64,000 bases of DNA from Devosia subaequoris (lineage in GTDB: Bacteria > Pseudomonadota > Alphaproteobacteria > Rhizobiales > Devosiaceae), in NCBI RefSeq assembly GCF_014197055.1, contig NZ_JACIEW010000001.1, positions 496,001 through 560,000 on the forward strand, read 5' to 3'. How positions within the stretch are numbered: the first letter of the stretch is position 1; each line of letters begins with the position of its first letter. The translations under genes and the position numbers were made by a program. Below, piece by piece: positions 49,485 to 63,632 of this stretch. The notes under the pieces are model-generated. The model saw only the letters and a program-made list of their open reading frames with translations, did not search any database and had not been told where the DNA came from.

Positions 49485-50591
49485 CTAGAACGCCGGGTTG
49501 TAGTTGAAGTAGAGGGGATTGGAGAGGGCGACCATGTTCTGACTCAGTGCCATGGAGTTGGGCACCGCCGGATAGGGGGTCTGCGGCCCTTCGATCTCGA
49601 CGCGATAATAATTGCGTTCGCCTGTGCCGGGAGTGTCAACGAAGCGAACACTGCGCGTCTCAGGGTCGGTAATCAACGTCGCAAATTCGTCCCGATTGCG
49701 CACCACCCGCACGCGATAGCTCGCCCTATCGATGCCGCCGCCGACCAGGCGCACCTCGAAGGTCACCGGCGCACCAGTCGGTTTGACATTGTCGCCCATC
49801 ATCATGTCCATCACCCCGTCCCCATCGTGATCGGCGACCAGTTCGACACGCGGATTGAACGGATTGGCGCTGACAGACGCGCGTCCCGCCGCCATGGCTT
49901 CCAGCACGGCCTGTTTGGTGCGCTCCCGCGCATAGACCCAGGTCGTCGGTGTACCGACATAGTTGGCTGTCGCCTCGATGGAGTGGGGTGTGGTCAATTC
50001 GGGCGCATCGGGCACGCCGTGATGGGCGTCACTGCCGCCCCGCCCCCCCAGCATGCGCCCCGATTTAAGCATATCGTCCCAGATGCGAACGCCGGGGACA
50101 TTCTTGGGCCAGACGCTGCCGTTCCAGATCTCCACCGAATCCGCAAGGTCGAACGAAAAGCCGTAATGGTTCTTCGTGCTGGGGTGATTGGCTGAGAAAT
50201 GCACGCCCAGTTCGCGTTTGAGGGCAAGCAGGTTCCAATCCCGATCATCACGGTGGTCGAACACCCGCTGGTGGTCATAAGGACCAGTCGAGAGAATATT
50301 GATGTGACCGCGATTGGCGGTTAGCTCGGCCCCGTGGAACAACAGCAGATTGTCTGATCTGAGTTCGGGGTCGGCCCAGGTATGGCTAGCCACCGCGCCC
50401 ATGACATGAACGTCGTGGTCGGTGATGGCGAGGTAGTCAAAACCCTGACTCTCGGCAAAGCCGATGATCTTGCCGATCGGGTTGTTGGATGAATCGGTGC
50501 TGTGCCGGGAATGCAGATGCCAGTCACCCTTGAGCCAGACCCCTTCCCGAGCCGGAAGCGGCGGAAGCGAAGTGGGGATAGCCGGGATCAT
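49485..50591 (-). CDS. CehA/McbA-type PHP-domain metallohydrolase
   Basis: The 368-residue protein from ATG 50591 has a PHP domain with metal-binding motifs WHLHSRHSTDS (residues 24-34), AITDHDVHVMG, HGAELTANRGHIN, SANHPSTKNH and GGSDAHHG. A C-terminal beta-rich part follows. It matches the CehA/McbA family, whose characterised members hydrolyse phosphoesters or carbamates. No signal peptide is seen, so it acts in the cytoplasm. The start overlaps the mannosidase stop by 4 bp, and it is the last gene of the operon. A role in removing a substituent from the imported glycan is inferred. Confidence 0.88.
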   Translation of the reverse strand: MIPAIPTSLPPLPAREGVWLKGDWHLHSRHSTDSSNNPIGKIIGFAESQGFDYLAITDHDVHVMGAVASHTWADPELRSDNLLLFHGAELTANRGHINILSTGPYDHQRVFDHRDDRDWNLLALKRELGVHFSANHPSTKNHYGFSFDLADSVEIWNGSVWPKNVPGVRIWDDMLKSGRMLGGRGGSDAHHGVPDAPELTTPHSIEATANYVGTPTTWVYARERTKQAVLEAMAAGRASVSANPFNPRVELVADHDGDGVMDMMMGDNVKPTGAPVTFEVRLVGGGIDRASYRVRVVRNRDEFATLITDPETRSVRFVDTPGTGERNYYRVEIEGPQTPYPAVPNSMALSQNMVALSNPLYFNYNPAF

Positions 50592-53500
50592 GCGCGTACT
50601 CCCGTCTCCAGCTTGAGGGTCAGAATCTGGAACGGGGTGAGTGCCAGCTGGACCTTGCCATCTTCGATCGTCAGAGGCCGTGGATCGCGTTCGAGCAGAT
50701 TGACGATCTCCGCCTGCCTTGTGCCGTCGGGCAGGCGTACGCTCACAGTGCTGCTGTGTCCGTGCGTTTCCCAAATGCGAGCGATCAAGCCGGCACCGTC
50801 CTCGCTACGCTTGAGCGCCTCCAACGTCACTCCCTGTCCGTCCAGCTCAAGCAGCGGACAAGACGCGGCCTCGCTCCCCTGCCCCGCCATCAGCCTCAGT
50901 GGCAGATTATAGGCTTCGGCGCGGGCGGGAATATCACTGGCCAGCAGGCCATGATGCACAATGGCCGCATAGCGGAAATGGTGTTCGCCCTGATCGGCCT
51001 CGGGCCATGGATAGACCGGCGACTTGAGCAGTGTCAGGCGAACCGTGCTGCCACGCACGTCATAGCCGTATTTGCAGTCGTTGACGAACGCGACGCCGAA
51101 ATCGGGTTCGGAAACATCGACCCAGCGATGCATGACGGTCTCGAAACGCGCCTGATCCCATGACGTATTGGCATGGCTGGGACGCCGGACATGACCGTAC
51201 TGGATCTCCGCCGTACTCTCCTGGGCCAGCACGTCGAGCGGGAACGCAACCTTCACCAGCGTATCGTGCTCATGCCAGTCAACACAATTGTCGAAGTCGA
51301 GCTGATCGCTGTCGGCACCAAGGGCGACGATCTGCACGATGCGGGACTGCTCGTAGCGCCATTCGAAGCGGATCGCGGCCCGGTGCGGGCCAGTTTCAAC
51401 GACCTCGGCGCTGACCAGATCGTCGATCTCCCAGACCTGATCCTCGAAACTGTCATCAATGTCCCAGGCGTCATATTCGACCGGCATGTCCCGATAGGCC
51501 TGCAGCCGGTTCGCCGCCTGTCCTGGCTTGATCGTCTCTCGCCCACGCCGCTTGTCGAATAGGGACACCAGATGCCCCTTGTCGTCGAAGCGGGCTGCAA
51601 TCATCCCGTTTTCGAGATGATGCGCGGAGACATCCAGCCCGCCATTGCCGCTTGCGTGGTCACCGGTTGCGCGCTCAACGCTTATGACGCTTGTTGCCGG
51701 CAGGTCTTTGACCAGCACGCCCTGTCGTGTCCGACCATCGGCCCGATGAATGACTTGGCTGGCGATCGACCGGCCGTCAATCGTCAGGCAGGACGGCTGT
51801 TCAGCGTCGAATTCGAGCAGGCCATCGCGCGGCCTGCCCAATGCGTTGAGCACGCCAAAGCGACCTTTGCCCGCCCGTGCACCTGTCAGTTCACCGCGCA
51901 GCTGCTCGGCAATTTCAAAAAACTGCTCATAATCGCGATCGCTGTCATCGAACACACCGCCGATCGAGGTTCCGGGCAGAATGTCGTGGAACTGATTGAG
52001 CAGCACGATGCGCCAAAGCGCGTGCAGCTGCGCCCCGGGATACGGCAGCCCGAGACGCTCTTGCGCCAAAACGGCCAACACCTCGAGTTCGCGCAGCGTC
52101 TGTTCGGCAAGACGATTGTTGCGCTTGTTCTTGGCCACCGAGGTCAGCGTGCCGCGGTGATATTCGAGATAGAGTTCCCCCACCCAGGTTGGATAGTCCC
52201 CCGGACGCTCGGCCATGCGCTTCAGAAGCCGCTCGAAATAGGGCCGCATGTGCTCATGCCGGACGGCCGGGCAGCCAGGGATGCCCTTTTCCATGCGGCG
52301 GATATTCTCCAGCATCTCGCGGGTGGGCCCACCGCCACCATCGCCATGGCCATAAACCATGAAGAGTTCATTGTTGAGCGACTGTTGCGCATGGCGCTTC
52401 CACGTTCCCATGACAAAAGTCGGCTTGATGTCGGCATTGTATGTCGTGCCAAAACCTGTCGCTGTGTAGGGCTGGGTGGTCATGAAATAGGCGGCCACGG
52501 TGCTGCCATCGATCCCCTGCCAGTGGAAGGTCTCGTTGGGCATGCGATTGGTGTCGTTCCAGCTCATCTTGTGGGTAACGAACATATCGACGTCGGCCAG
52601 CTTCATCATCTGCGGCAGCGCAGCAGAATAACCGAACGTATCCGGGAGCCAGAACACACGCGGCGTCACCCCGAAAGTTTCTTCGTGATAGGCCACACCG
52701 TGCAGAATATGCCGGGCAAAGGACTCGCCACTGGTGATATTGGCGTCGGGCTCGAGCCAAAGCGCCCCTTCGATCTCGAACTTGCCCGCCTCGACCTGCT
52801 TCTGAACCCGCTCGAAGATTTCGGGGTAGTCCTGAGCCAGATAGTCCAGCAGCACGCCCTGATTATACATGAAGCGGTAGTCGGGATATTGCTCCATCAG
52901 AGCCAGGGCCGTCGACATTGACCGAGCCATCTTCTGACGGGTTTCGCGCACGCGCCAGAGCCATGCGACATCGATATGGGTGTGGCCGGTAACCGTGATG
53001 ACCGGTTTGTCCCCGAAATCCCTGGCCGCATAAATTTCCTCGGCTATCGCCTGGGCCCGTTCAAGCGAGGCCGCAAATCGTGCCGCATCGCCGGGCCGGA
53101 AGTCGATTTGTGCCAGCGCCGCATCAACGCGATTGACAATATGGTGCCGTCGCGGATCGTCCTCGGCCAGCAGGCGCGCCACATCGAGCGGCACGGATAG
53201 ATCGTAGAACACCTTCTCGACCAGTGCGTCATGCGCCAGCAACGAGAACGACATGCCGTATTGCCGTCGGTCCTCGATGGTCCCCGCTTCGAGCAGAATG
53301 TCGTAGGTTTCGCCCGCCTGTGCGGCGGTGCTTAGCAGCACCTCCTGGTGATTGCCATCGGCCCCCTGAGCAATCCGGCCATTGACCCGCACCAGGCATT
53401 GCGGGTCCGAGCGGCCACGCGTATTGCCAAACTGCGCATTGACCTTGAGAAATACCCGCTGCCCGTTGGCCGCCTCCGGCATTGCAAAGCGCGTCGCGAA

Positions 53501-53695
53501 CCAGAAATAGCTCTCCGGCTCACCCCAAACCAGATCGGGACCAACCGCCTCCCAGTCCTGCGGGTCCTCCATCACAATATCGGCGCGCTGCTCAGGCAGG
53601 CCGCGCCGGAAGCGCAGTGGCAAATCCGCGACGATCTCCGTGAAGATATGTGCGCGCAGGCGACGGAGAAGGTGATCCAGTTTTTTGAAACGCAT
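50588..53695 (-). CDS. GH38 alpha-mannosidase
   Basis: GH38 enzymes cleave alpha-mannosidic bonds with a zinc ion and an Asp nucleophile. I start at ATG 53695 (MRFKKLDHLLRRLRAHIF), 8 bp after an AGGA site; ATG 53704 is an alternative. The 1035-residue enzyme has an N-terminal ancillary beta region (to about 235). The catalytic part carries zinc motif TGHTHIDVAWLWR (238 on) and nucleophile Asp352 in WLPDTFGYSAALPQM. THKMSWNDTNRMP and YGHGDGGGGPT follow, then large C-terminal beta domains. No signal peptide is seen, so imported glycans are cut in the cytoplasm. Confidence 0.95.
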   Translation of the reverse strand: MRFKKLDHLLRRLRAHIFTEIVADLPLRFRRGLPEQRADIVMEDPQDWEAVGPDLVWGEPESYFWFATRFAMPEAANGQRVFLKVNAQFGNTRGRSDPQCLVRVNGRIAQGADGNHQEVLLSTAAQAGETYDILLEAGTIEDRRQYGMSFSLLAHDALVEKVFYDLSVPLDVARLLAEDDPRRHHIVNRVDAALAQIDFRPGDAARFAASLERAQAIAEEIYAARDFGDKPVITVTGHTHIDVAWLWRVRETRQKMARSMSTALALMEQYPDYRFMYNQGVLLDYLAQDYPEIFERVQKQVEAGKFEIEGALWLEPDANITSGESFARHILHGVAYHEETFGVTPRVFWLPDTFGYSAALPQMMKLADVDMFVTHKMSWNDTNRMPNETFHWQGIDGSTVAAYFMTTQPYTATGFGTTYNADIKPTFVMGTWKRHAQQSLNNELFMVYGHGDGGGGPTREMLENIRRMEKGIPGCPAVRHEHMRPYFERLLKRMAERPGDYPTWVGELYLEYHRGTLTSVAKNKRNNRLAEQTLRELEVLAVLAQERLGLPYPGAQLHALWRIVLLNQFHDILPGTSIGGVFDDSDRDYEQFFEIAEQLRGELTGARAGKGRFGVLNALGRPRDGLLEFDAEQPSCLTIDGRSIASQVIHRADGRTRQGVLVKDLPATSVISVERATGDHASGNGGLDVSAHHLENGMIAARFDDKGHLVSLFDKRRGRETIKPGQAANRLQAYRDMPVEYDAWDIDDSFEDQVWEIDDLVSAEVVETGPHRAAIRFEWRYEQSRIVQIVALGADSDQLDFDNCVDWHEHDTLVKVAFPLDVLAQESTAEIQYGHVRRPSHANTSWDQARFETVMHRWVDVSEPDFGVAFVNDCKYGYDVRGSTVRLTLLKSPVYPWPEADQGEHHFRYAAIVHHGLLASDIPARAEAYNLPLRLMAGQGSEAASCPLLELDGQGVTLEALKRSEDGAGLIARIWETHGHSSTVSVRLPDGTRQAEIVNLLERDPRPLTIEDGKVQLALTPFQILTLKLETGVRA

Positions 53696-53711
53696 AGGCT
53701 TCATCCTGCCG

Positions 53712-56165
53712 CTAATGAGTGCTGATCGTGATGTCTGGGGTGACGCCGTGAGCCGGCGGCGGTTGCGGGACGAAGTCGACCAGCAGCCCCTGCTGCCAGT
53801 CCAGGCGCAGTTGCGCTGACCCAGGTCCTTCAAACACCAGCGCGTTTTTGCCATCGAAATGCAGTCGGCATTGCCCCATTCGATGGACAAAGTCCGAAAG
53901 GGATTCGCCCTGGGCAACGACAACGGCCCATCCCTGTAGCGGTCCATTGCAACGGTATTCAAGTCCCTCTGCGGGCCCCTCCTTGATCGCCTGCAATGCA
54001 CCGGTTGCCTTGAGGGCCACCAGTCCATCGCCACCCTCCAGCACCAGCAGATCGTCGTGATGGTGATGGATGAGGCCAGCCCGGGCGGCAAAGGCGTGGG
54101 TGAAGTTCAGGCGCGCTTCGCTACCCGGTCGGTATTGCAGCAAAGCAGCGTTACCATGCTGACCAACGCGCGGCAGCGTGCCATTCCCGGCCCAGTATGA
54201 TGGGCGCTGCTGGCCCCAGGGATCGTCCTCGCCGGGGTGATTGATCCAGGCACGGGCCATCGGGTGACTGGCAAAACGCAGGTCGAGCACATGCTGCTGA
54301 TGACCATGCCCGCCCGCTTTGGCGCCACTATTGGTGGACAGCTGGACATCGCGCGTTTTGTACAGGCCCAGCTCTGCTGCCGGCCCGTAACCCTGCAAAT
54401 AGCGCGCTGAAACGACCTGCCCCGGGTCCAGCCAGGCGTAGCGCGCAAGCCCCTCGGGCGGTTCATAGCGACCCGCCGCAAACAGCGGCAGCGATGCGAC
54501 GCCCTTGTTGAGCCATCCCTGGCCAAAGGCAACGGCAGCAAAAGGCGCCAACTCGGTCAGCGGCCCCGCCCGCAATTCCTTGTCATAGGCCCGCCCCATC
54601 GAGCCCGCTGGCACGCCTTCGAGCGTGTGGAGCGCAACCATAGTAAAGATCCGGTCGCACATGGCCCGAGCGCGATCTGCCAGGTCCGGTGGCCCAAGCT
54701 CTGCCAATGTCAGCAGGCCAATGAAGTCCACTGGGTAATAGGCAGCTGAATTCCATTCCGCGAGCCCGTCTTCTTCAACCGCTTCGAACCAGCGCGCCAG
54801 TCGCCCGGCGGCCAATTCCGCTTGCGCCGTCCCAGTCCGGCCAGAAGCCGAAAATGTATCTTGGGCAAAACTCTGCCCGGCCAGCATTTGTGCGACGTGA
54901 AAACACAATGCGTGGTTCTCACTCCAGAACCACATGGCGTCATTGCCCGGCTCGTCTACCCAATAGCGGAAATCGAGCACGGCTTGCCGAATACGCGTCT
55001 GCAGATTTGCAGGCAACGCGTCCCGGTAGCGTATCCAGACCCAAAGCAACGGCACCGCAACGAAATCGGCACAGTCCCGCCGTTCCGCCATAGCCAGCAG
55101 TGTCTCCTCGACGATGCCAGCGATCCGCGGGTCGTCCGTCTCGCCACCTTCGAGCAGGGCGACAACCAACCCCATTCGGTTCTCGCCATAAGCAATGGCG
55201 TGTTCGAGCGCCTGCTTTTTGCGGTCAGCCAGGTCGCCCCCAAGTCGCTTGGCCGAGGTCTGGTGCAGAACAGCACACCCGATCGTGCGCTCCACCACAC
55301 TATCACCGGCCAGAAAAGTAAGTTGCAGTACGTGATAGCCTTGCGGCAGGTCGTGCCCGCTGCATAGCGCTATCTCGGTCGCGCCTGCAGGCAAATCATA
55401 GACTGCATCGAGCAACACTGCCCTGGTGTGCGAGGTCGTGGCAATCACGGCGCGAATACGCACGGGCGTGCCGGCTGGCGTGTCGAACAGCAGCGTCAAC
55501 TCGTCGTCAGCTGTCACCACGTCGCCGCGTGTACGCACCTGGGCTGATAGCCCGCGCAATGTCTCGACGTGGTCTCCCAGGCTTGCGCCCGGCAAATATA
55601 CATCCAGCGTCACATCGTCGAGCAGCACCAGTTCGAAGAACCAGTTGGTATCTCGCTCTGCCATGTCCTCGGTTAGCACGATGATCTCGCTGCCACCTGC
55701 CTTGATGGGCAGATGCACCACGCTGCGCTGATCCGCATTGCGTGTGAACGGTTCAAAGCGCCCGGCCAACTCTCCATCGACCCAGATGTGCACCCCGCCC
55801 CGGGTTCGTAGCTCGAACGAGCAATACCGGTCCCTCGACGCAGCAACCCGCGTGCGGCACCAGCGCGCCAGGCGCGTCGGCCGGTGTCGGAACTGGCTGA
55901 ACTCGACGCGGCGGTTGTTGCCGGGAAGATAAAGCGCTTCAACTGGCCAGTCGGTGCGCAACGTCACGCTGCGCTTGGCGACGTCTCGCCAGGTCGCAAC
56001 CCGGCAGGGCAAGTCACCGACATCCACAAAGCCGTTGACATATTTGTAGTCCTGCGGATCGCTCGCTGTAGCGGGCTCCCCCGGAAAATACTCGGCTTCA
56101 ACCTCGGACAATTCCCAGGCGGTCAGACTGTCGCCGCGGGCGATGGTCAGCAAAGGGCACGACAT
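53712..56165 (-). CDS. Uncharacterised large protein with polysaccharide-lyase-like layout
   Basis: I do not recognise a named family for this 817-residue protein. Residues 1-300 are beta-rich, with carbohydrate-binding-like stretches (RGGVHIWVDGELAGRFEPF). Residues 310-560 are helical, with WFWSENHALCFHVAQ at about 412-426, as in an alpha/alpha-toroid. Residues 600-817 are beta-rich again and open with KAGGHGHQQHVLDLRF. The order toroid then beta domain, with Asn-His in the first and His-x-His in the second, recalls heparinase II/III-type lyases. No signal peptide is visible. The gene lies between the HAD fusion (20 bp) and the mannosidase (16 bp). Confidence 0.7.
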   Translation of the reverse strand: MSCPLLTIARGDSLTAWELSEVEAEYFPGEPATASDPQDYKYVNGFVDVGDLPCRVATWRDVAKRSVTLRTDWPVEALYLPGNNRRVEFSQFRHRPTRLARWCRTRVAASRDRYCSFELRTRGGVHIWVDGELAGRFEPFTRNADQRSVVHLPIKAGGSEIIVLTEDMAERDTNWFFELVLLDDVTLDVYLPGASLGDHVETLRGLSAQVRTRGDVVTADDELTLLFDTPAGTPVRIRAVIATTSHTRAVLLDAVYDLPAGATEIALCSGHDLPQGYHVLQLTFLAGDSVVERTIGCAVLHQTSAKRLGGDLADRKKQALEHAIAYGENRMGLVVALLEGGETDDPRIAGIVEETLLAMAERRDCADFVAVPLLWVWIRYRDALPANLQTRIRQAVLDFRYWVDEPGNDAMWFWSENHALCFHVAQMLAGQSFAQDTFSASGRTGTAQAELAAGRLARWFEAVEEDGLAEWNSAAYYPVDFIGLLTLAELGPPDLADRARAMCDRIFTMVALHTLEGVPAGSMGRAYDKELRAGPLTELAPFAAVAFGQGWLNKGVASLPLFAAGRYEPPEGLARYAWLDPGQVVSARYLQGYGPAAELGLYKTRDVQLSTNSGAKAGGHGHQQHVLDLRFASHPMARAWINHPGEDDPWGQQRPSYWAGNGTLPRVGQHGNAALLQYRPGSEARLNFTHAFAARAGLIHHHHDDLLVLEGGDGLVALKATGALQAIKEGPAEGLEYRCNGPLQGWAVVVAQGESLSDFVHRMGQCRLHFDGKNALVFEGPGSAQLRLDWQQGLLVDFVPQPPPAHGVTPDITISTH

Positions 56166-56185: not shown

Positions 56186-57418
56186 TCAGACGAAATGTGT
56201 GGTCGGCAGCCGGTAAGGCAGCAATGCCTCAAGCCGCTCAAGCAGGGCCGGCAGTTCGGCAGGTGCCGAAATTCTGTAGTCCGGCACCTCGTCAGCATCG
56301 GCGGGCGCATGGGGACGAAGGCTCGACCACGCCATGAAGACCGAGGTTATCCCCAGCCGATTGGCGCCCTTGATGTCCCTGGAAAGGTTGTTGCCCACCA
56401 TCACGCAACGCCAGGCGTCAGCGCGCGTGAGGCCTGCGGCCTCCAGCGCGGCGTCAAACATGCGCGCGTCGGGCTTTAGCACGCCGACATCGCCGGAGAT
56501 CACATGGGCATCGAACAGATCCCACAGGCCGTGCTGGCTTAGAACATTCATGAAGGTCTGGCGCGGACCGTCGGCCACCAGTACCAGCTTGTGCCCCGCG
56601 TCCTTGAGCGCATGCATCATTTCCGCCGCGCCAGGGATAAGATCACCTCGCAGCACCACCTCACTCCCCGGCTCCTTGATCTCGGTGCGCTCGTCCACGA
56701 GCGTGTCGCCGCAATCGAGCAGGATCGCACCAAAATGGGGCAGTTGCTCGGAGAGCCTTGCCAGTTCGCTCTTGACCCGCTTGGGAATCTCGGCCGCAAG
56801 CTCGGGCCACGGCAGGATCGGCAGATCCGTTTCGAACCGGCGGTAGGCGTGAGCCGGCACAAAGGCGTCACCCTGCATCTTGAGCCGAGCACGGCGGTGA
56901 TCCGCCGCCGAGGCGGCATACTTGCCCGATTTGGCGAAGTCATTGCCCAGATGCACGCCCTCTTCGCCTGCCAGCGGGCCGCAAACCGCCTCCAGACGAC
57001 GACGTGATCCGGCATCCATGTGGTCCGGGCTGGCCCAGTGTGCATGCTTTCCAGCTTCAACATAGATCACCGGCCGGCCATGCGACATCTGGGCAGAGCC
57101 TGCGCCAGCATCCATGACCAGCCGGCCGCCATGGGAGGAGGCGTCCACGCGTATGACTGCACCCGAATGATCGACATGCACCCAGACATGTTCGAGGTCG
57201 TAGAGGTGGCCGATATCCCAGTCGTAGTAGACCGCATATTCGATGGTAAGCTCGCCAGCGGGCTCGATCGTGAACTTGGACGAGGGCGAGGGGGCCACGT
57301 TGCGCAACACGGTCTGCCCGAGCGCCACCGGCAGATAGGGCTCATTGCTGTCCAGCATGAAGACCGGCGCAAATCTGGCGGCGATTTCCGCGTCACTTAA
57401 CGGCAGATCTGCGCTCAC
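56186..57418 (-). CDS. Two-domain protein: Vps62/NPP1-like region fused to HAD hydrolase
   Basis: The GTG start at 57418 overlaps the oppF-like stop by 4 bp and gives 410 residues. Residues 1-190 (ARFAPVFMLDSNEPYLPVALG, DWDIGHLYDLEHVWVHVD, SSHGG, RPVIYVEAGKHAHWAS) read like the Vps62/NPP1 type, which uses GHxxDxE and HG motifs. Residues 228-405 are a HAD domain: motif I LLDCGDTLV, LVLVADGPRQTF, the Lys in VGVLKPDARMFDAAL and MVGNNLSRDIKGANRLG. In motif I the second Asp of DxD is Gly, so ordinary phosphatase chemistry is not certain. It probably works on products inside the cell. Confidence 0.8.
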   Translation of the reverse strand: MSADLPLSDAEIAARFAPVFMLDSNEPYLPVALGQTVLRNVAPSPSSKFTIEPAGELTIEYAVYYDWDIGHLYDLEHVWVHVDHSGAVIRVDASSHGGRLVMDAGAGSAQMSHGRPVIYVEAGKHAHWASPDHMDAGSRRRLEAVCGPLAGEEGVHLGNDFAKSGKYAASAADHRRARLKMQGDAFVPAHAYRRFETDLPILPWPELAAEIPKRVKSELARLSEQLPHFGAILLDCGDTLVDERTEIKEPGSEVVLRGDLIPGAAEMMHALKDAGHKLVLVADGPRQTFMNVLSQHGLWDLFDAHVISGDVGVLKPDARMFDAALEAAGLTRADAWRCVMVGNNLSRDIKGANRLGITSVFMAWSSLRPHAPADADEVPDYRISAPAELPALLERLEALLPYRLPTTHFV

Positions 57419-58479
57419 GTCGTCACTCCGGTCAGCGTCAACTCCTCCGCGAAATGGCAGCGGACCTGCCGCCCACCGGCCACCGCGCGCAGCGCGGGTT
57501 CGTCGGTGCCGCACACCGGCTGGGCATAGGGGCAACGCGGGTGAAATGTGCATCCCTTGGGCGGATTGGCAGCATTGGCAATCTCACCCTTGAGCGGCAC
57601 ACGCTTGCGGGTGCGATTGCCGCGCGGATCGGGCTGCGGAACTGCTGCCATCAGCGCTTCGGTATAAGGGTGCAACGGCTTGGCGAATAGCTGGTCGGTC
57701 GGGGCAGTCTCCATCAACCGCCCCAGATACATCACGCCCACCCGATCCGAGATATGCTCCACCATGCCCAGATCGTGGGTGATGAACAGGTAAGTCAGGC
57801 CAAACTTTTCCTGCAGGTCCTGCATCAGATTGATGTTTTGCGCCGCCACCGAAACGTCCAGCGCCGAAACCGCCTCGTCAGCAGCGATAAAGCTCGGGTT
57901 AAGCGCCAATGCCCGGGCAATACCGATGCGCTGGCGCTGCCCTCCGGAAAAGGCGTGCGGATAGCGGTTGATATATTCAGGACGCAGCCCGACCACCTGC
58001 AACAATTCGGCCACCCGGTCGCGGATTTCGCCCTGGCTGCCCACACCGTGGATCAACATGGGCTCGCCCACCAATTGCAGGAGCGTCATACGCGGGTTGA
58101 GCGAGGAATAGGGATCTTGAAAGATCATCTGCATCTCGCGCCGCATAGTGCGCATCTGCCGGTCCGTCAGGTCCGAGAGATCAATGACTTCCCCATTGCC
58201 TCCCCGAAACAGGATCTGCCCATCGGTGAGGTCATAGGCCCGTAGCATCAGGCGCGCCACGGTCGACTTGCCCGAGCCTGATTCCCCGACCAGGCCGAAA
58301 GTCTCTCCCTTGCGGATATCGAGCGAGACATCGTCGATGGCTTTGATGTGCCCCACGGTCTTTTTCATCCAGCCGGCCTGGATGGGGAAGTATTTCTTCA
58401 GCCGGCGCACCGAGATCAGCACATCTTCGGGCATTTCGCCGGCCTGCGGCGTCGAGTGGGACATGGCAGCTTCAGGCAT
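57415..58479 (-). CDS. Opp-type ABC transporter ATPase (OppF-like)
   Basis: The 354-residue ATPase from ATG 58479 (AGGAG 8 bp upstream) has Walker [26 protein letters not shown], signature FSGGQRQRIGIARAL, AADEAVSALDVSV and the C-terminal oligopeptide-type Cys cluster HPRCPYAQPVC. It pairs with the OppD-like protein to drive import. In homologous transporters the cysteines bind an iron-sulfur cluster. The canonical D-E of Walker B is present as ADEAVS, where most have ADEPVS. It overlaps oppD by 8 bp. Confidence 0.94.
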   Translation of the reverse strand: MPEAAMSHSTPQAGEMPEDVLISVRRLKKYFPIQAGWMKKTVGHIKAIDDVSLDIRKGETFGLVGESGSGKSTVARLMLRAYDLTDGQILFRGGNGEVIDLSDLTDRQMRTMRREMQMIFQDPYSSLNPRMTLLQLVGEPMLIHGVGSQGEIRDRVAELLQVVGLRPEYINRYPHAFSGGQRQRIGIARALALNPSFIAADEAVSALDVSVAAQNINLMQDLQEKFGLTYLFITHDLGMVEHISDRVGVMYLGRLMETAPTDQLFAKPLHPYTEALMAAVPQPDPRGNRTRKRVPLKGEIANAANPPKGCTFHPRCPYAQPVCGTDEPALRAVAGGRQVRCHFAEELTLTGVTT

Positions 58480-59506
58480 GAACGGGCTCCTGAGCAAACT
58501 GGTCTGCGATGTGGCAGCGCGACATCTGGCTACCGAAGCGTTTTTCCGGAGGTTCCTGCACGTCACACAACCCGGCCAGCGCATGGCTGCAACGGGGGTT
58601 GAAGGCACAGCCAGGCGGCACGCTGAATGGATCCGGTACCATGCCCGGGATGGTCGGCAAGCGACGTCCCTGATCGACCCCCAGCCGCGGGATCGAGCGC
58701 AGCAGGGCCTGGGTATAGGGGTGCTTCGGGGCATAGAAGATATCGTCGACCGTCGCGGTTTCGACAATACGCCCCAGATACATCACCGACACCCGGTCGG
58801 CGATGTCGGCCACCACCCCGAAATTGTGGGTGATGAAGATGATCGCCATGCCCAGCTCGGACTGCAGCTGCTTGAGCAGTTCCAGGATTTGCGCTTCCGT
58901 CGTCACATCGAGCGCCGTGGTGGGCTCATCGGCGATCAGAAGCGCCGGATCGCAGGAAATAGCCAGAGCGATCATGGCGCGCTGGCGCATGCCGCCCGAA
59001 AGCTGGTGCGGATAGGCATCGACCAATTGCTCGGGCCGCGGCATCTGCACCTTGGCCAACAGGTCAATGGCCCGCGCCCGCGCGGCGGACCGGCTCATCC
59101 CCATGTGGAGTTGCACCGTACGCATGATCTGACTGCCGATCGTGTGAACCGGCGACAGCGCCGTCATCGGCTCCTGGAAGATCATGCCAATATGCTTGCC
59201 GCGCACCTGCCGGATCGCGCGGCTGTTGCGGCCATAAGAGGAAAGCTCGAAATGCTCCCCGGAGCGCAATTGCATCTGCACCCGTCCGCCGGCATCGACC
59301 GCCCTTTTGGGCAGCAACCGCATAATGGAACGCGCGGTGATCGACTTGCCCGACCCCGATTCCCCGACGATCCCAAGCACTTCGCCCTTGTTGACATGAT
59401 AGGAAACGCCGTCCACCGCCTTCACCAACCCTTCGCGCAAGGGGAAGTGGACCTGGACATTGTCGACATCGAGCAGCCGCTCTGGGGGCATGTTGGTTTT
59501 GGTCAT
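58472..59506 (-). CDS. Opp-type ABC transporter ATPase (OppD-like)
   Basis: The 344-residue product ([20 protein letters not shown]) has Walker [28 protein letters not shown], signature [26 protein letters not shown] and the C-terminal Cys cluster [13 protein letters not shown]. It forms the ATPase pair with the OppF-like protein on the cytoplasmic face. It starts 4 bp after the upstream permease stop. The nearest substrate class, given the mannosidase, is oligosaccharides or glycosides. Confidence 0.94.
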
Positions 59507-59510
59507 GGTC

Positions 59511-60644
59511 TTATTGCCCATAGGGGTCGGCTGCATCGCGCAGGCCATCGCCGAGGAAATTGAAGGCCAGGACAGTGAGAACCACCGCCGCGCCCGGCGA
59601 AAGCAACCAGGGGGCCAGCGAGATTGAACGCAGGTTCTGGGCATCCTGCAGCAGCACGCCCCAGCTTACCACCGGCGGCCGCAGGCCCAGACCGAGGAAG
59701 CTCAGCGCGGTTTCGCCCAGGATCATTTCTGGAACGGCCAGGGTCAGCGCCGCAATGATATAGGAGGTCATCGAGGGCAGCATGTGCTTGGTGATGATGC
59801 GGTATTCGGTTGCCCCGGCCAGCCGGGCCGCCATCACATAGTCCTCATTGCGAATGGCCAGGAACTGCCCGCGCACCACGCGCGCCAAATGCGTCCAGCC
59901 GATCAAAGCCAGGATCAGCGTTATCAGCACATAGACCACGATAGGATCCCACGCGATGGGCAGCGCCGCCGCCAGCCCCATCCATAGCGGGATCGTGGGC
60001 ACCGACCGGATCAGTTCCATCAGGCGTTGGATGGAGTTGTCGATCCAGCCACCAAAATAGCCCGAGATCGAACCCAGCGTCAGGCCGAGCACAAAGGCGA
60101 AGATCACCCCGATCAATCCGGCCGACAGCGTCACCCGGCCGCCATGCATCAGCCGCGAGAACACATCGCGCCCCAGATCGTCGGTCCCGAGCAGGTTGAT
60201 CTGCTGCCGCCTGTCATCGACGCCGAACAGGTGAATATTGGACTGAAACAGGCCAAAGAAATTGTAGTCGTCGCCTTGATGGAACAGCCGGATTGGCAGC
60301 ACGGTTTCCGGGTCCGTCTCGTAGATGACCCGCGCCGTTTCGGCGTCCCGCTCGCGCGACAGGCCATAGACGAAGGGGCCGACGAACTTGCCTTCATGGA
60401 ACAGGTGTATGCCCGTAGGCGGCGCCAGCGTCCTTAAGCGCTGCACCTCGAATGGCGCATAGGGCGCCACCATGTCCGCGAACAAGGCGCACAGTGCAAG
60501 AATGACTAGGAACCACAGCGACACCACAGCCAGGGCGTGTTTGGAAAAGCGGCGCCAGATGAGTTGCGCCGGCGTGGCAGTATAGAGATCTTCCTTGCGG
60601 TCCTTGGCAGGCGCAGCGGTCGAGTTGATGGTCTGATCGGTCAT
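59511..60644 (-). CDS. Opp-type ABC transporter permease (OppC-like)
   Basis: The 377-residue permease begins MTDQTINSTAAPAKDRKEDL, with a long cytoplasmic N terminus and a first helix near residue 40 (LAVVSLWFLVILALCALFAD). It carries GTDDLGRDVFSRLMHGGRVT, the classic OppC/DppC phrase, and the EAA loop AARLAGATEYRIITKHMLP. Its large loop between helix 1 and the core, about 100 residues, is longer than in OppC and would face the periplasm. It lies 10 bp after the other permease. Confidence 0.93.
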   Translation of the reverse strand: MTDQTINSTAAPAKDRKEDLYTATPAQLIWRRFSKHALAVVSLWFLVILALCALFADMVAPYAPFEVQRLRTLAPPTGIHLFHEGKFVGPFVYGLSRERDAETARVIYETDPETVLPIRLFHQGDDYNFFGLFQSNIHLFGVDDRRQQINLLGTDDLGRDVFSRLMHGGRVTLSAGLIGVIFAFVLGLTLGSISGYFGGWIDNSIQRLMELIRSVPTIPLWMGLAAALPIAWDPIVVYVLITLILALIGWTHLARVVRGQFLAIRNEDYVMAARLAGATEYRIITKHMLPSMTSYIIAALTLAVPEMILGETALSFLGLGLRPPVVSWGVLLQDAQNLRSISLAPWLLSPGAAVVLTVLAFNFLGDGLRDAADPYGQ

Positions 60645-60654
60645 GGCCAATCCC

Positions 60655-61641
60655 TCACGCGTTGCGGATGCGCGGGTCGAACCACGCAAGCAGGATGTCG
60701 GAGATCAGCGTGCCCACGACGGTGAAGACGCTGAGGATAAGAATGAAGCTGCCCGCCAGATACATGTCCTGCATCTTGAGCGCCTGGAGCAACAACGGCC
60801 CGGTAGTAGGCAGGTTGAGAACAACCGCCGTGATCACGTCACCGGAAAACAGCGCCGGCAAGGCCCAGCCAACGGTCGAAATGAACGGATTGAGCGCCAC
60901 GCGAACCGGATAGGTCCAGACCACGCGGGCTTCGCTCAAACCCTGTGCATATGCCGTTTCAACATAGGGTTTACCCAGCTCGTCCAGCATGTTGGCGCGC
61001 ATCACGCGGATCAGTCCCGCTGCGCCGCCCGTCGCGAGCACGACAAGTGGAATCCAGAGGTGGCTCAGGAGATTTCCGAGCTTGGCGAAGCTCCAGGGGG
61101 CATTCTGATATTCGGGCGAGAACAGCCCGCCCACATCCATGTTGAGATAGGCGAAGGCCAACCACATCAGGATCAGGGCCAGCAGGAAGTCCGGAATGCC
61201 TTTGCCCAGAAAGCCGAACACCGTGAACAGGTGATCCAGAAACGAATATTGCCGCGACGCCGAATAGACGCCGACAGGGATGGCAATTGCCCAGGTCAGC
61301 ACCAGACTCGCCGAGGATATCGCCAGGGTCAGCATCAGCCTGTCCCAGATCAGGGTCGAAACCGGTGCATTCCACTCCAGTGAATAGCCGAAATCGCCGC
61401 GCAGCACGATATCGCTGATCCAGCGCCAATATTGCACGATCATCGGGTCGTTGAGCCCGAACTGGTCGCGCATCATCTCTTCCTGCAGCGGCGAGATGTA
61501 CTCTCCGGCATGGCGCAATTGCGCGGCATAGGCGGTGACATAGTCGCCGGGCGGAAGCTGAATGATCACGAACGAAATGAACGAGATGAAGATCAGCGTC
61601 GGAATCGCCAGAAGGGCGCGGTTGCCGATAAATGCGAGCAT
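60655..61641 (-). CDS. Opp-type ABC transporter permease (OppB-like)
   Basis: The 328-residue permease starts MLAFIGNRALLAIPTLIFIS and has six membrane segments, the binding-protein-dependent pattern WISDIVLRGDFGYSLEW near the middle and the EAA loop VETAYAQGLSEARVVWTYPV. It should pair with the OppC-like permease to form the pore. The 89-bp gap to the solute-binding protein gene is the largest in the operon. Confidence 0.94.
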   Translation of the reverse strand: MLAFIGNRALLAIPTLIFISFISFVIIQLPPGDYVTAYAAQLRHAGEYISPLQEEMMRDQFGLNDPMIVQYWRWISDIVLRGDFGYSLEWNAPVSTLIWDRLMLTLAISSASLVLTWAIAIPVGVYSASRQYSFLDHLFTVFGFLGKGIPDFLLALILMWLAFAYLNMDVGGLFSPEYQNAPWSFAKLGNLLSHLWIPLVVLATGGAAGLIRVMRANMLDELGKPYVETAYAQGLSEARVVWTYPVRVALNPFISTVGWALPALFSGDVITAVVLNLPTTGPLLLQALKMQDMYLAGSFILILSVFTVVGTLISDILLAWFDPRIRNA

Positions 61642-61730: not shown

Positions 61731-63632
61731 TTAGTCCTGTTCGAGCCAGAACTGCTGGGTGCGCGCCAGGCCCACACCGCGGAAGATGTCGTCCTGCACA
61801 AGGTTTGCCTGCACATTGTGCATCTTGTCCGAGACGATATTGACCACGGTACCGGCACCATAGACACCGATTACCCAGCCCTGATTGACGAAGATTTCCG
61901 CCATCTGGGAGACATAGTCATCGGCGACTTCCACCGATGCCGACTGCGACGCCTGATCCCAGAGATCATAGATCTGCTGCAGTTCAGCGCTCGGCTCCAT
62001 GCCTTCGGCGCCATCGGTATTGTACCACTTGAAGCTCTGGTTGGCGTAGCCGTCCGAGCCCATGATGCGGCGCGGATCGGCCGGCACATAGGTCAGGCGA
62101 TCGAACGGAATCCAGTGCATCTGGAAGTCGTTATTGGCGCGATTGTTGTCCCACTGGGTCCGGTCGATCACGCGGGGCAGGAATTCGATGCCGACATCGG
62201 CAAAGTTTTCAGCCAGAAGTTCAAGCGTTTTGGCGTGAGCGGCGTCATTGGCCTCTACCACCAGGCTGAACCGCTGCCCATCGGGCCGCAAGCGGAAGCC
62301 GGCACCATCGCGTTCGCTCAGCCCCGCTTCATCAAGCAGTTCGTTAGCCAGATCGGGGTCGTATTCGGTCCAGTGGTTCGACAGCTCCTCGCTGTAATAG
62401 GGGGACCCCATCACCGGCGCGGTCTGCAGTTCCTTTGCCAAACCCGATTGCGTCAGCTCATTGATCAGTTCCCGATCCACGGCAATCGACATGGCATGGC
62501 GTACTGCCTCGGTCTCGAACAGCCCACGCAGAACCTCGTCCGTGGTGTTCATATTGGGCACCAGCGACCACACATTGGAGTCCAGGCCGGGCACGATGTG
62601 ATAGCCGCCGCGCTCCTCGTTCTCCTTGTAGAAGGTGTAGTTATCCAGGCCCATATAGCGCGCCTGCATGTCGATCTGGCCCTGCGCCACCATCAGGTTG
62701 AGCGTTTCGGGATCCTGGAACAGCCGGTGCTCGATGCGATCGATATAGGGGAGCTGGTTACCCTCCTGATCCACGGCATAGTAGTACGGGTTGCGCACCA
62801 TGGTGACGGTTTCAGCCGGCGCGGGGGTCTCGATTTTCCAGGCGGTGATGACCGGCAGCTCCGGATTGTTCCACCAGCCGGTCAGGGCGCCCTTGGAGCC
62901 CCAGAGGTCAGTCCAGGCCGCGACATTGTACTTCTCGGCTGCTGCCGCGAGCTCTTCTTCGCTGGCATATTTATCGTTGTACTGGCTCAGATAGTGCTTG
63001 GGAAACAGGAAGCTGGGCCGGTCAAGGCTGGGTTCGCCGGTGGAATCCTTGGCCAGGATCTGCAGAAAATACACATAAGGCTGGGCGAATTTGATGGTGA
63101 AGGTCCGCTCGTCCTGAACCTCAAGCTCAAGCGGCACGCCGCCCGGGGCAAAGGTGGGGTCAATCGTCGGCACCAGTGCAGGATTGAGGAAAACGTCGTT
63201 ATACCAGAACTCGACATCCTCGGTTGTGACCGGCATGCCATCGGACCACTTCAGGCCCTCGAGAAGTGTGAATGTGAATTCGGTCGAATCCTCGTTGACC
63301 GAATAGCTCTCGATATAGCCTGGGGTCAGCACTGCCGTGCCGTTCTCATCCGCGGTCCATTTGAGCACACGCTCTTCCATGAGCTTGGTAGGACCCCAGC
63401 GGTCGCCCGGACCGCTATAGGCGCGGCGCCAGGTGCCGCCATACTCGCCCACGCTGAGGGCTTCCACCACAGTGGGGTTTTCCGGGAGCCGTTCGTCAAC
63501 CGGTGGCAACTCGCCCGACTCGACCATCTCCGCCAGCATCGGCGCCTCCTGGAAGGCCCAGGGCGAGCCGGCCATCGCCGTTGACGACAGAGCCGCTAGG
63601 GCAATCGCCGCAACCCAATTCTTGGTATTCAT
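61731..63632 (-). CDS. Family-5 ABC solute-binding protein of oligosaccharide type
   Basis: The 633-residue periplasmic protein has a signal peptide (MNTKNWVAAIALAALSSTAM, cleavage near AMAG). Then comes the opening EAPMLAEMVESGELPPVDER, seen in the large Opp-type binding proteins that in some bacteria bind oligosaccharides instead of peptides. Further landmarks are TFTLLEGLKWSDGMPVTTED, NPYYYAVDQEGNQLPYID and EYDPDLANELLDEAGLSERD. The start ATG 63632 has AGGAG 7 bp upstream. It heads the transport operon, and the mannosidase suggests mannosides as cargo. That is inference. Confidence 0.93.
   Translation of the reverse strand: MNTKNWVAAIALAALSSTAMAGSPWAFQEAPMLAEMVESGELPPVDERLPENPTVVEALSVGEYGGTWRRAYSGPGDRWGPTKLMEERVLKWTADENGTAVLTPGYIESYSVNEDSTEFTFTLLEGLKWSDGMPVTTEDVEFWYNDVFLNPALVPTIDPTFAPGGVPLELEVQDERTFTIKFAQPYVYFLQILAKDSTGEPSLDRPSFLFPKHYLSQYNDKYASEEELAAAAEKYNVAAWTDLWGSKGALTGWWNNPELPVITAWKIETPAPAETVTMVRNPYYYAVDQEGNQLPYIDRIEHRLFQDPETLNLMVAQGQIDMQARYMGLDNYTFYKENEERGGYHIVPGLDSNVWSLVPNMNTTDEVLRGLFETEAVRHAMSIAVDRELINELTQSGLAKELQTAPVMGSPYYSEELSNHWTEYDPDLANELLDEAGLSERDGAGFRLRPDGQRFSLVVEANDAAHAKTLELLAENFADVGIEFLPRVIDRTQWDNNRANNDFQMHWIPFDRLTYVPADPRRIMGSDGYANQSFKWYNTDGAEGMEPSAELQQIYDLWDQASQSASVEVADDYVSQMAEIFVNQGWVIGVYGAGTVVNIVSDKMHNVQANLVQDDIFRGVGLARTQQFWLEQD

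Follow-up and report, generated by a model that had tools for sequence, protein, structure and literature searches.

The window analysed here, a stretch of 64,000 nucleotides from Devosia subaequoris (contig NZ_JACIEW010000001.1, positions 496,001 to 560,000), carries a gene (53712..56165, stop codon included) for a protein of 817 amino acids (P0001), which is likely a cytoplasmic oligosaccharide lyase, as judged from predicted structures and by analogy with characterized enzymes, with every chemical step, the order of the steps and the substrate inferred. The evidence comprises a predicted fold common to a group of polysaccharide lyases (PLs), invariant residues spaced as in their active sites, and neighbouring genes, in most relatives, for enzymes that consume the product of a lyase.

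The candidate lyase gene

The gene, like all the window features described below, is on the minus strand; the same span read on the plus strand has internal stops. Its ATG is located 20 bases past the preceding stop codon, and the gene for a glycoside hydrolase (GH) of family GH38 starts 7 bases beyond its own stop. Upon search of 61 genomes, nearly full-length homologues with 44-86% identity were found in 16 further Devosia genomes and in one genome outside the genus. The full homologue is present in 17 of 37 genus genomes, its own included, and one further genome gave a weak local match (E 2.3e-4). The closest named relatives are those of Devosia marina (86% identity) and D. indica (85%), and the protein is single in its own genome (one match only). 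This wide and near full-length conservation indicates that the 817-residue frame described in an earlier note on this DNA is a gene starting from ATG, and not a chance frame. Where a product name is shown, the homologues are called "hypothetical protein" or "hypothetical conserved protein". The same note had seen no signal peptide, in agreement with a maximum 15-residue hydropathy of 0.61 in the first 50 residues versus 1.9 for the nearby binding protein, as measured by a simple hydropathy index and not by a predictor; the family-wide hydropathy list was limited to the 34 rows whose first residue is M, L or V.

Predicted fold

A full-length model was built by AlphaFold2 on alignment A1 of 46 rows, which holds the window protein and 45 of 80 loci (here and below, counts out of 80 refer to the best 80 of 222 relatives). 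Its predicted local distance difference test score (pLDDT) was 85.8 and its predicted template modelling score (pTM) 0.87, while residues 305-817 modelled alone on 47 rows gave 88.5 and 0.89. The order of beta-rich, helical and beta-rich parts, read from the letters in the earlier note, is borne out by both models. The probable catalytic unit is an alpha/alpha toroid followed by an antiparallel beta-sheet (residues 305-817; 53715..55253), as indicated by AlphaFold2, Foldseek and VIA-align. It is preceded by a GH2-like beta-sandwich (residues 9-184; 55614..56141), aligned by VIA-align with 3fn9 (Z 9.2, 122 residues, 3.0 Å), and by a small immunoglobulin-like (Ig-like) sandwich (residues 204-300; 55266..55556), aligned with 4g5a (Z 9.4, 81 residues, 2.3 Å).

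In the Foldseek search of the PDB with residues 305-817, each of the first 31 chains bore the title of a polysaccharide lyase, and 24 had E <= 0.001; the first unrelated protein came only after them. The top match was the PL33 enzyme 8r71 (E 5.6e-7, probability 1.00), followed by GAGase VII 8khw (5.8e-6), chondroitinase 9o3q, Alg17c 4ok4 (8.0e-6) and exoHep 6lja (1.0e-5); chondroitin AC lyase 1rwa, Dp0100 6jp4 and others were further lyase matches. By VIA-align, the domain alone was aligned with 8khw (Z 12.1, 394 residues, 5.1 Å) and 4nei (Z 10.7, 425 residues, 5.7 Å), and residues about 309-806 of the full model with heparinase III 5jmf (Z 12.3, 360 residues, 5.9 Å). The toroid part of the full model was also aligned with HepC, heparinase II 2fuq (Z 10.1), Alg17c 4nei (Z 9.9), and chondroitinase AC and hyaluronate lyases. 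By its predicted structure, the candidate is a member, at remote scores, of the group of lyases with a toroid and an antiparallel beta-sheet. The likeness to heparinase II/III-like lyases suspected in the earlier note, which had proposed a structure prediction with comparison, is thus found again at the level of the predicted fold: a toroid is present, and lyases are the closest structures for residues 305-817.

A GH2 identity, suggested by the full-length Foldseek search, was tried and dropped, since VIA-align confines the GH2 likeness to residues about 9-184. The model contains no TIM-barrel catalytic domain of the GH2 type; past residue 305 it consists of the toroid and the beta-sheet.

The protein could instead be a glycoside hydrolase with a helical toroid, as such hydrolases of GH127, GH146 and GH63 are included low in the Foldseek list (from rank 33 on, E 8e-3 and weaker). 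They rank behind the 31 lyase chains with far lower scores, and the pattern Asn-His...Tyr described below is typical of lyases, which makes a hydrolase very improbable. The earlier proposal of "a new lyase or glycosidase" is accordingly narrowed to its first half by the fold and the spacing of that pattern.

Putative catalytic residues

Conservation was examined on A1 and on a wide alignment A3 of 31 rows with 27-86% identity to the window protein, several rows of both starting a few residues late. E416, N417, H418, E470, Y476, D480, R525, Y527, Q623, W658 and H690 are invariant in both alignments, and H643 is conserved in 45/46 and 31/31 rows. By analogy with known lyases, E416-N417-H418 (54912..54920) is the probable neutralizer of the substrate carboxylate, Y476 within Y476-Y477 (54735..54740) the probable catalytic Tyr, and H622 within G621-H-Q-Q-H625 (54291..54305) the probable helper of this Tyr. 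Position 622 is His in 46/46 rows of the near family and His, Tyr and Phe in 21, 9 and 1 rows, respectively, of the wide set. The SENH motif, which the earlier note had placed in the helical part, corresponds to residues 415-418. Within its second motif, GGHGHQQH with a His-x-His pair (618-625), H622 and H625 are kept in all 46 rows of the near family, but H620 is poorly kept (His in 3/46 rows); the key Tyr, Y476, was absent from its residue list. Few positions in the protein are as well conserved as those of the supposed cleft. This argues against a non-catalytic sugar-binding relative, a reading that the N-terminal sandwiches of sugar-binding type would allow and that we consider even less probable than a hydrolase.

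The distances from N417 to Y476 (59) and to H622 (205) are both inside the ranges of 53-60 (Asn-Tyr) and 184-240 (Asn-His) for PL12, PL15 (exoheparinase), PL17, PL33, PL35, PL39 and PL40. The Asn/Tyr/His residues are 192/246/401 in PL35, 240/294/424 in PL12, 336/390/555 in PL15 exoheparinase, 201/258/413 in PL17 and 186/239/405 in PL39, with His202/Tyr257/His406 in PL21 (PMC12088678), N238/Y291/H444 in PL33 (PMC11848413) and N245/Y305/H485 in PL40 (PMC12915356). In PL8 AC-lyase and PL23, unlike the candidate, PMC12088678 places His between Asn and Tyr, His233 and Tyr242 of PL8 AC-lyase being nine residues apart.

Sequence families

No match of the candidate to Pfam or NCBIfam was detected at E <= 1, in keeping with the earlier statement that no exact family match was seen. 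The heparinase II/III family PF07940 matched 0/46 family members, and hhalign against 17 PF07940 proteins gave probabilities of 0.9% and 2.0%, that is, no profile kinship; these 17 were taken from 25 fetched loci, eight being left out because a frame other than the intended one was the longest there. The commonest Pfam match within the family was PA14 (11/46 members, best E 3e-5), the window protein not being among them. Against PDB sequences, phmmer provided no route to a family name, profile A1 found no lyase among all entries, its two matches being weak and to unrelated proteins (E 0.16 and 0.28), and profile A4 found no match at E <= 10. At the sequence level, no kinship with lyase families of solved structure, such as PL8, 12, 15, 17, 21, 23, 33, 35 and 39, or with PF07940 was detected. 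On this evidence the candidate resembles the toroid lyases in fold and residues without being shown to be a member of their sequence families. It probably represents a polysaccharide-lyase family not yet numbered, the comparison covering Pfam, NCBIfam and PDB sequences, with CAZy outside it. No paper on this protein family was recognized in a search of the open-licence literature, which is weak evidence of absence.

Comparison with known lyases

Among characterized enzymes, the best Foldseek match, the PL33 hyaluronan lyase BtPL33HA (8r71; PMC11848413), has the toroid and beta-sheet in common with the candidate, and its Asn-Tyr and Asn-His distances are 53 and 206 against 59 and 205. BtPL33HA is described as consisting of two domains only, with a conserved zinc site, whereas the candidate has two extra front domains and no sequence match to it. 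The PL35 GAGases (8khv, 8khw; PMC12088678), the best VIA-align match of the domain, are alike in the Asn, Tyr and His triplet; they act on glycosaminoglycans and have no sequence match to the candidate. The PL17 enzymes Alg17c and Smlt2602 (4nei; PMC4765187) are exo-acting oligosaccharide lyases with Asn-His followed by Tyr, as N417-H418 and Y476; in Smlt2602, Asn207-His208 is followed by the tandem Tyr263-Tyr264, which resembles Y476-Y477. The candidate differs from PL17 in that there is no sequence match and no alginate genes were noted in its clusters. The PF07940 group (PL12, PL15, PL21) is alike in fold and active-site spacing, but its sequence family is not matched.

A parallel in gene content is provided by the gut xanthan locus of Ruminococcaceae R.UCG13, in which, according to PMC10881899, a PL8 enzyme acting on oligosaccharides and not on native xanthan is likewise accompanied by genes for GH88, two GH38 and an ATP-binding cassette (ABC) transporter. 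That enzyme has no sequence match to the candidate.

GH88, KduI and KduD neighbours

In 59 of the 80 loci the next gene downstream encodes a GH88-type hydrolase (tblastn, at least 80 bits). GH88-type hydrolases need an unsaturated uronide. For one of them (L096), a Pfam search confirmed the domain PF07470. KduI adjoins the homologue in Pseudosulfitobacter, Pannonibacter and Sinorhizobium chiapasense, and the distant homologues are accompanied by GH88 and KduI, some also by KduD; within seven extended distant regions, GH88 was found in five, KduI in four and KduD in three. GH88, KduI and KduD are all enzymes consuming the product of a lyase. A 2019 study reportedly treated the GH28/GH88 genes of Agrobacterium.

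Four GH88-family proteins (L096:12502-13596, L098:4662-5759, L100:10038-11138 and L101:14497-15576) are called "beta-galactosidase BglB" by NCBIfam NF051900. This name conflicts with the Pfam GH88 label (L096) and the record labels, and is at odds with GH88 chemistry.

In the genome of the window, homologues of KduD and KduI lie side by side on another contig, with 51% and 59% identity to the Pseudosulfitobacter/Thioclava queries. A GntR-like gene was observed near this pair (L151, G000:C3, about 240-248 kb) and, by eye, genes for a TRAP transporter and a mannonate dehydratase beside it.

Importer cluster and GH38 alpha-mannosidase

The homologues are accompanied by importers of the UgpC type or the Opp type. 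In the window, an Opp-type ABC importer (57415..61641) is encoded by two ATPase genes (57415-58767 and 58472-59644) and two permease genes (59511-60689 and 60655-61641), the frames being as listed and the true starts possibly lying later, together with a substrate-binding protein of the SBP_bac_5 family (61731..63632; Pfam E 1.6e-57). Between the importer and the candidate lyase lies a gene (56186..57415, start approximate) for a fusion of an N-terminal domain of about 230 amino acids with no Pfam match, which may resemble Vps62-like proteins, and a HAD phosphatase. The candidate is followed by the GH38 alpha-mannosidase gene (50588..53704, 1038 amino acids; Pfam domains over the cut-off on the longer frame 50588-54091) and a gene for a PHP metallohydrolase of the CehA/McbA type (49485..50591, 368 amino acids from the likely start; NCBIfam NF038032, 128.4 bits, cut-off 80). 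The window set thus runs from the binding protein through the candidate to GH38 and CehA/McbA, without GH88, and a LacI gene is located just past the right edge of the window (L152).

The Opp importer (OppB of at least 55% identity) was found in 38/80 loci; the HAD fusion gene (at least 100 bits) accompanies it in 31 and is absent from the remaining 42 loci. GH38 is inside the fetched flanks of only 6/80 loci. Of 27 genomes selected for a search with both proteins (those of L071 and of 26 Opp-type loci), 24 have GH38 no more than 21 kb from the homologue, on the same strand of the same contig; the exceptions are L022 (42 kb, other strand) and L025 and L071 (unlinked), and one of the 24, L019, has an internal stop in GH38. 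The order in Ciceribacter (L097) and Allorhizobium (L103) is GH38, CehA/McbA-type, LacI, binding protein, OppBCDF, HAD fusion, candidate lyase and GH88, the CehA/McbA family match being checked on L097 only. The Devosia clade of the window has no adjoining GH88 and usually retains the Opp importer and the GH38 alpha-mannosidase.

The earlier note had regarded a cytoplasmic location as unusual for a lyase acting on polymer. The location agrees with the lack of a signal-peptide-like start, and the oddity is lessened by the neighbouring Opp importer and, in most relatives, GH88-type hydrolase, since these suggest a lyase that acts on oligosaccharides in the cytoplasm.

As separate observations, the CehA/McbA-type metallohydrolase goes with the cluster in Devosia and also, judging from a family match, in Ciceribacter, and an alpha-L-fucosidase is encoded near the cluster in some Devosia (L019, L021, L026).

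Evidence against a lyase and against mannose-bearing substrates

Several observations weigh against the assignment. The 31 lyase chains are only remotely alike to the candidate in Foldseek (TM-score 0.30-0.46, identity 7-12%), values that speak for one fold with remote kinship. The VIA-align Z scores of 8-12 lie in the range, below about 13, for which the tool gives a warning that a common arrangement in helical folds can be the cause. The full-length Foldseek list is led by GH2 enzymes, with the first toroid lyase at rank 50. In both models, the loops of lowest confidence include Y476 and adjoin N417, so that the active site is a putative one, based on conservation and spacing. H622 is not universal, being Tyr or Phe in 10/31 wide rows and Tyr in the distant subfamily; in PL17, a second Tyr is proposed as the base instead of His (PMC4765187, PMC11848413), so that Tyr at 622 need not mean lost function. 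Finally, human dermatan sulfate epimerase 6hzn scores as high as the PL17 lyases by VIA-align (Z 10.9, 435 residues), and a beta-D-glucuronate dehydratase, 9nwf, is in the same list (Z 9.2, 223 residues). The same fold and residues could serve another reaction at the C5 proton of a uronate, either C5-epimerization, as by human dermatan sulfate epimerase 1, or dehydration. Neither enzyme heads the Foldseek list, and the GH88-type neighbour of 59/80 homologues and the KduI/KduD genes beside distant ones speak for a lyase, leaving these other reactions improbable.

The genes for product use are also incomplete. GH88 does not adjoin the homologue in 21/80 loci (15 titled Devosia, three Chelativorans, and three titled only Alphaproteobacteria or Rhizobiales bacterium); L020, L027 and L034 have short flanks, and L020 and L030, not titled Devosia, group in the Devosia clade of a quick tree. 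The genome of the window is without any GH88-family (PF07470) gene, and GH88 is over the cut-off in only 2/17 genus genomes having the full homologue. In the tree, both the Devosia clade of the window and that of Chelativorans are placed among lineages linked to GH88, so that GH88 was most simply lost there. The tree has long branches at L099, L101 and L133, and the GH88 state of L133 and L135-L140 was assigned only after drawing: GH88 is near five of these rows and is found near neither L138 nor L139 (regions L157 and L159, the latter ending at a contig edge), which requires one more change than the three printed. No GH88 was found in the L099 (Haladaptatus) region.

As to the substrate, the GH28 genes next to the homologues of Rhizobium suggest pectin and not mannose-bearing substrates there. 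The order in R. etli is homologue, GH88, GH28 and UgpC-type importer, and the GH28 matches the NCBIfam polygalacturonase PglB over the cut-off; in Thioclava, rhamnose genes are located a few kb from the homologue. The enzyme might act on pectin-type oligosaccharides (galacturonan or rhamnogalacturonan) throughout, with GH38 as a mere neighbour. This is a possibility that we rather doubt, as GH38 is linked in 24/27 genomes, mostly Opp-type, and the 8-kb flanks of the Opp-type loci among the 80 contained no GH28, although Allorhizobium L103 has both. The two branches may simply differ in substrate.

Proposed reaction and pathway

For the candidate as an oligosaccharide lyase, the following pathway is proposed. 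The Opp-type importer would bring in short oligosaccharides holding an O4-substituted uronic acid, which the lyase would bind in the cleft between the toroid and the beta-sheet domain. N417 with H418 would neutralize the carboxylate, and Y476, aided by H622 where present, would take the C5 proton and protonate the leaving oxygen; the product of this beta-elimination would be a 4,5-unsaturated uronic acid. The GH88-type hydrolase that the next gene encodes in most relatives may free the unsaturated sugar, and KduI and KduD would carry it to central metabolism, while the GH38 alpha-mannosidase of Opp-type clusters would remove alpha-mannose. In Devosia without adjoining GH88, the lyase may work from the chain end and free the unsaturated sugar by itself, or another enzyme may replace GH88.

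The presence of GH38 in Opp-type clusters suggests a substrate with 4-linked uronic acid and alpha-mannose; that it is an oligosaccharide of alpha-mannose and uronate has about an even chance of being correct. Examples would be a fragment of glucuronomannan or a xanthan-like side chain of mannose, glucuronic acid and mannose (Man-GlcA-Man). For the breakdown of glucuronomannan, in which 4-linked GlcA and alpha-Man make up the chain, exactly this set of enzymes would be required. More tentatively, the protein may be the founding member of a new lyase family, a cytoplasmic oligosaccharide lyase that carries a GH2-like and an Ig-like domain at its front and cleaves alpha-Man-(1->4)-GlcA bonds, such as those of glucuronomannan, within a conserved importer-lyase-GH88-GH38 pathway of Alphaproteobacteria. 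Bolder still is the suggestion that the HAD fusion and CehA/McbA neighbours mean a phosphate-bearing substrate such as the head of a plant sphingolipid. Plant sphingolipids have a Man-GlcA-inositol-phosphate head.

Distribution and significance

Relatives are encoded in 222 of 229 pattern-matched stretches of a public collection of species-level genomes. The taxa among the 80 loci include Devosia, Rhizobium, Chelativorans, Pelagibacterium, Roseibium, Martelella, Pannonibacter, Rhodobacteraceae and others; distant forms (27-37% identity to the window protein) were found in Pseudosulfitobacter, Sinorhizobium chiapasense, Pannonibacter and Thioclava, as well as in four genomes that belong to the phylum but not to the class. 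The occurrence is patchy, as the gene was present in 1/289 genomes in an even draw over the class, this being that of the window, and in 9/398 in an even draw over the phylum, the window's own included. No relative was found in a scan of viral contigs. A haloarchaeal relative of 661 residues in Haladaptatus (L099:13782-15764), the match covering 22% of the query, is without the front sandwiches and is neighboured by sugar-isomerase and Gfo/Idh/MocA genes. A second subfamily (L098, L100, L102, L135-L140) has GYQET where the main family has GHQQH; it lies beside GH88 and KduI/KduD in several loci, and some genomes carry both subfamilies.

The gene is carried by 200 plasmid records, 123 of them of Rhizobium, and by many chromosomes of bacteria from root nodules, soil and the sea. 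If the protein is a lyase, the toroid lyases would gain a family that escapes plain sequence searches, and the partner enzymes GH88 and GH38 would indicate what its substrate must contain. The lyase identity, if true, would account for a widespread route of nutrient use in plant-associated bacteria.

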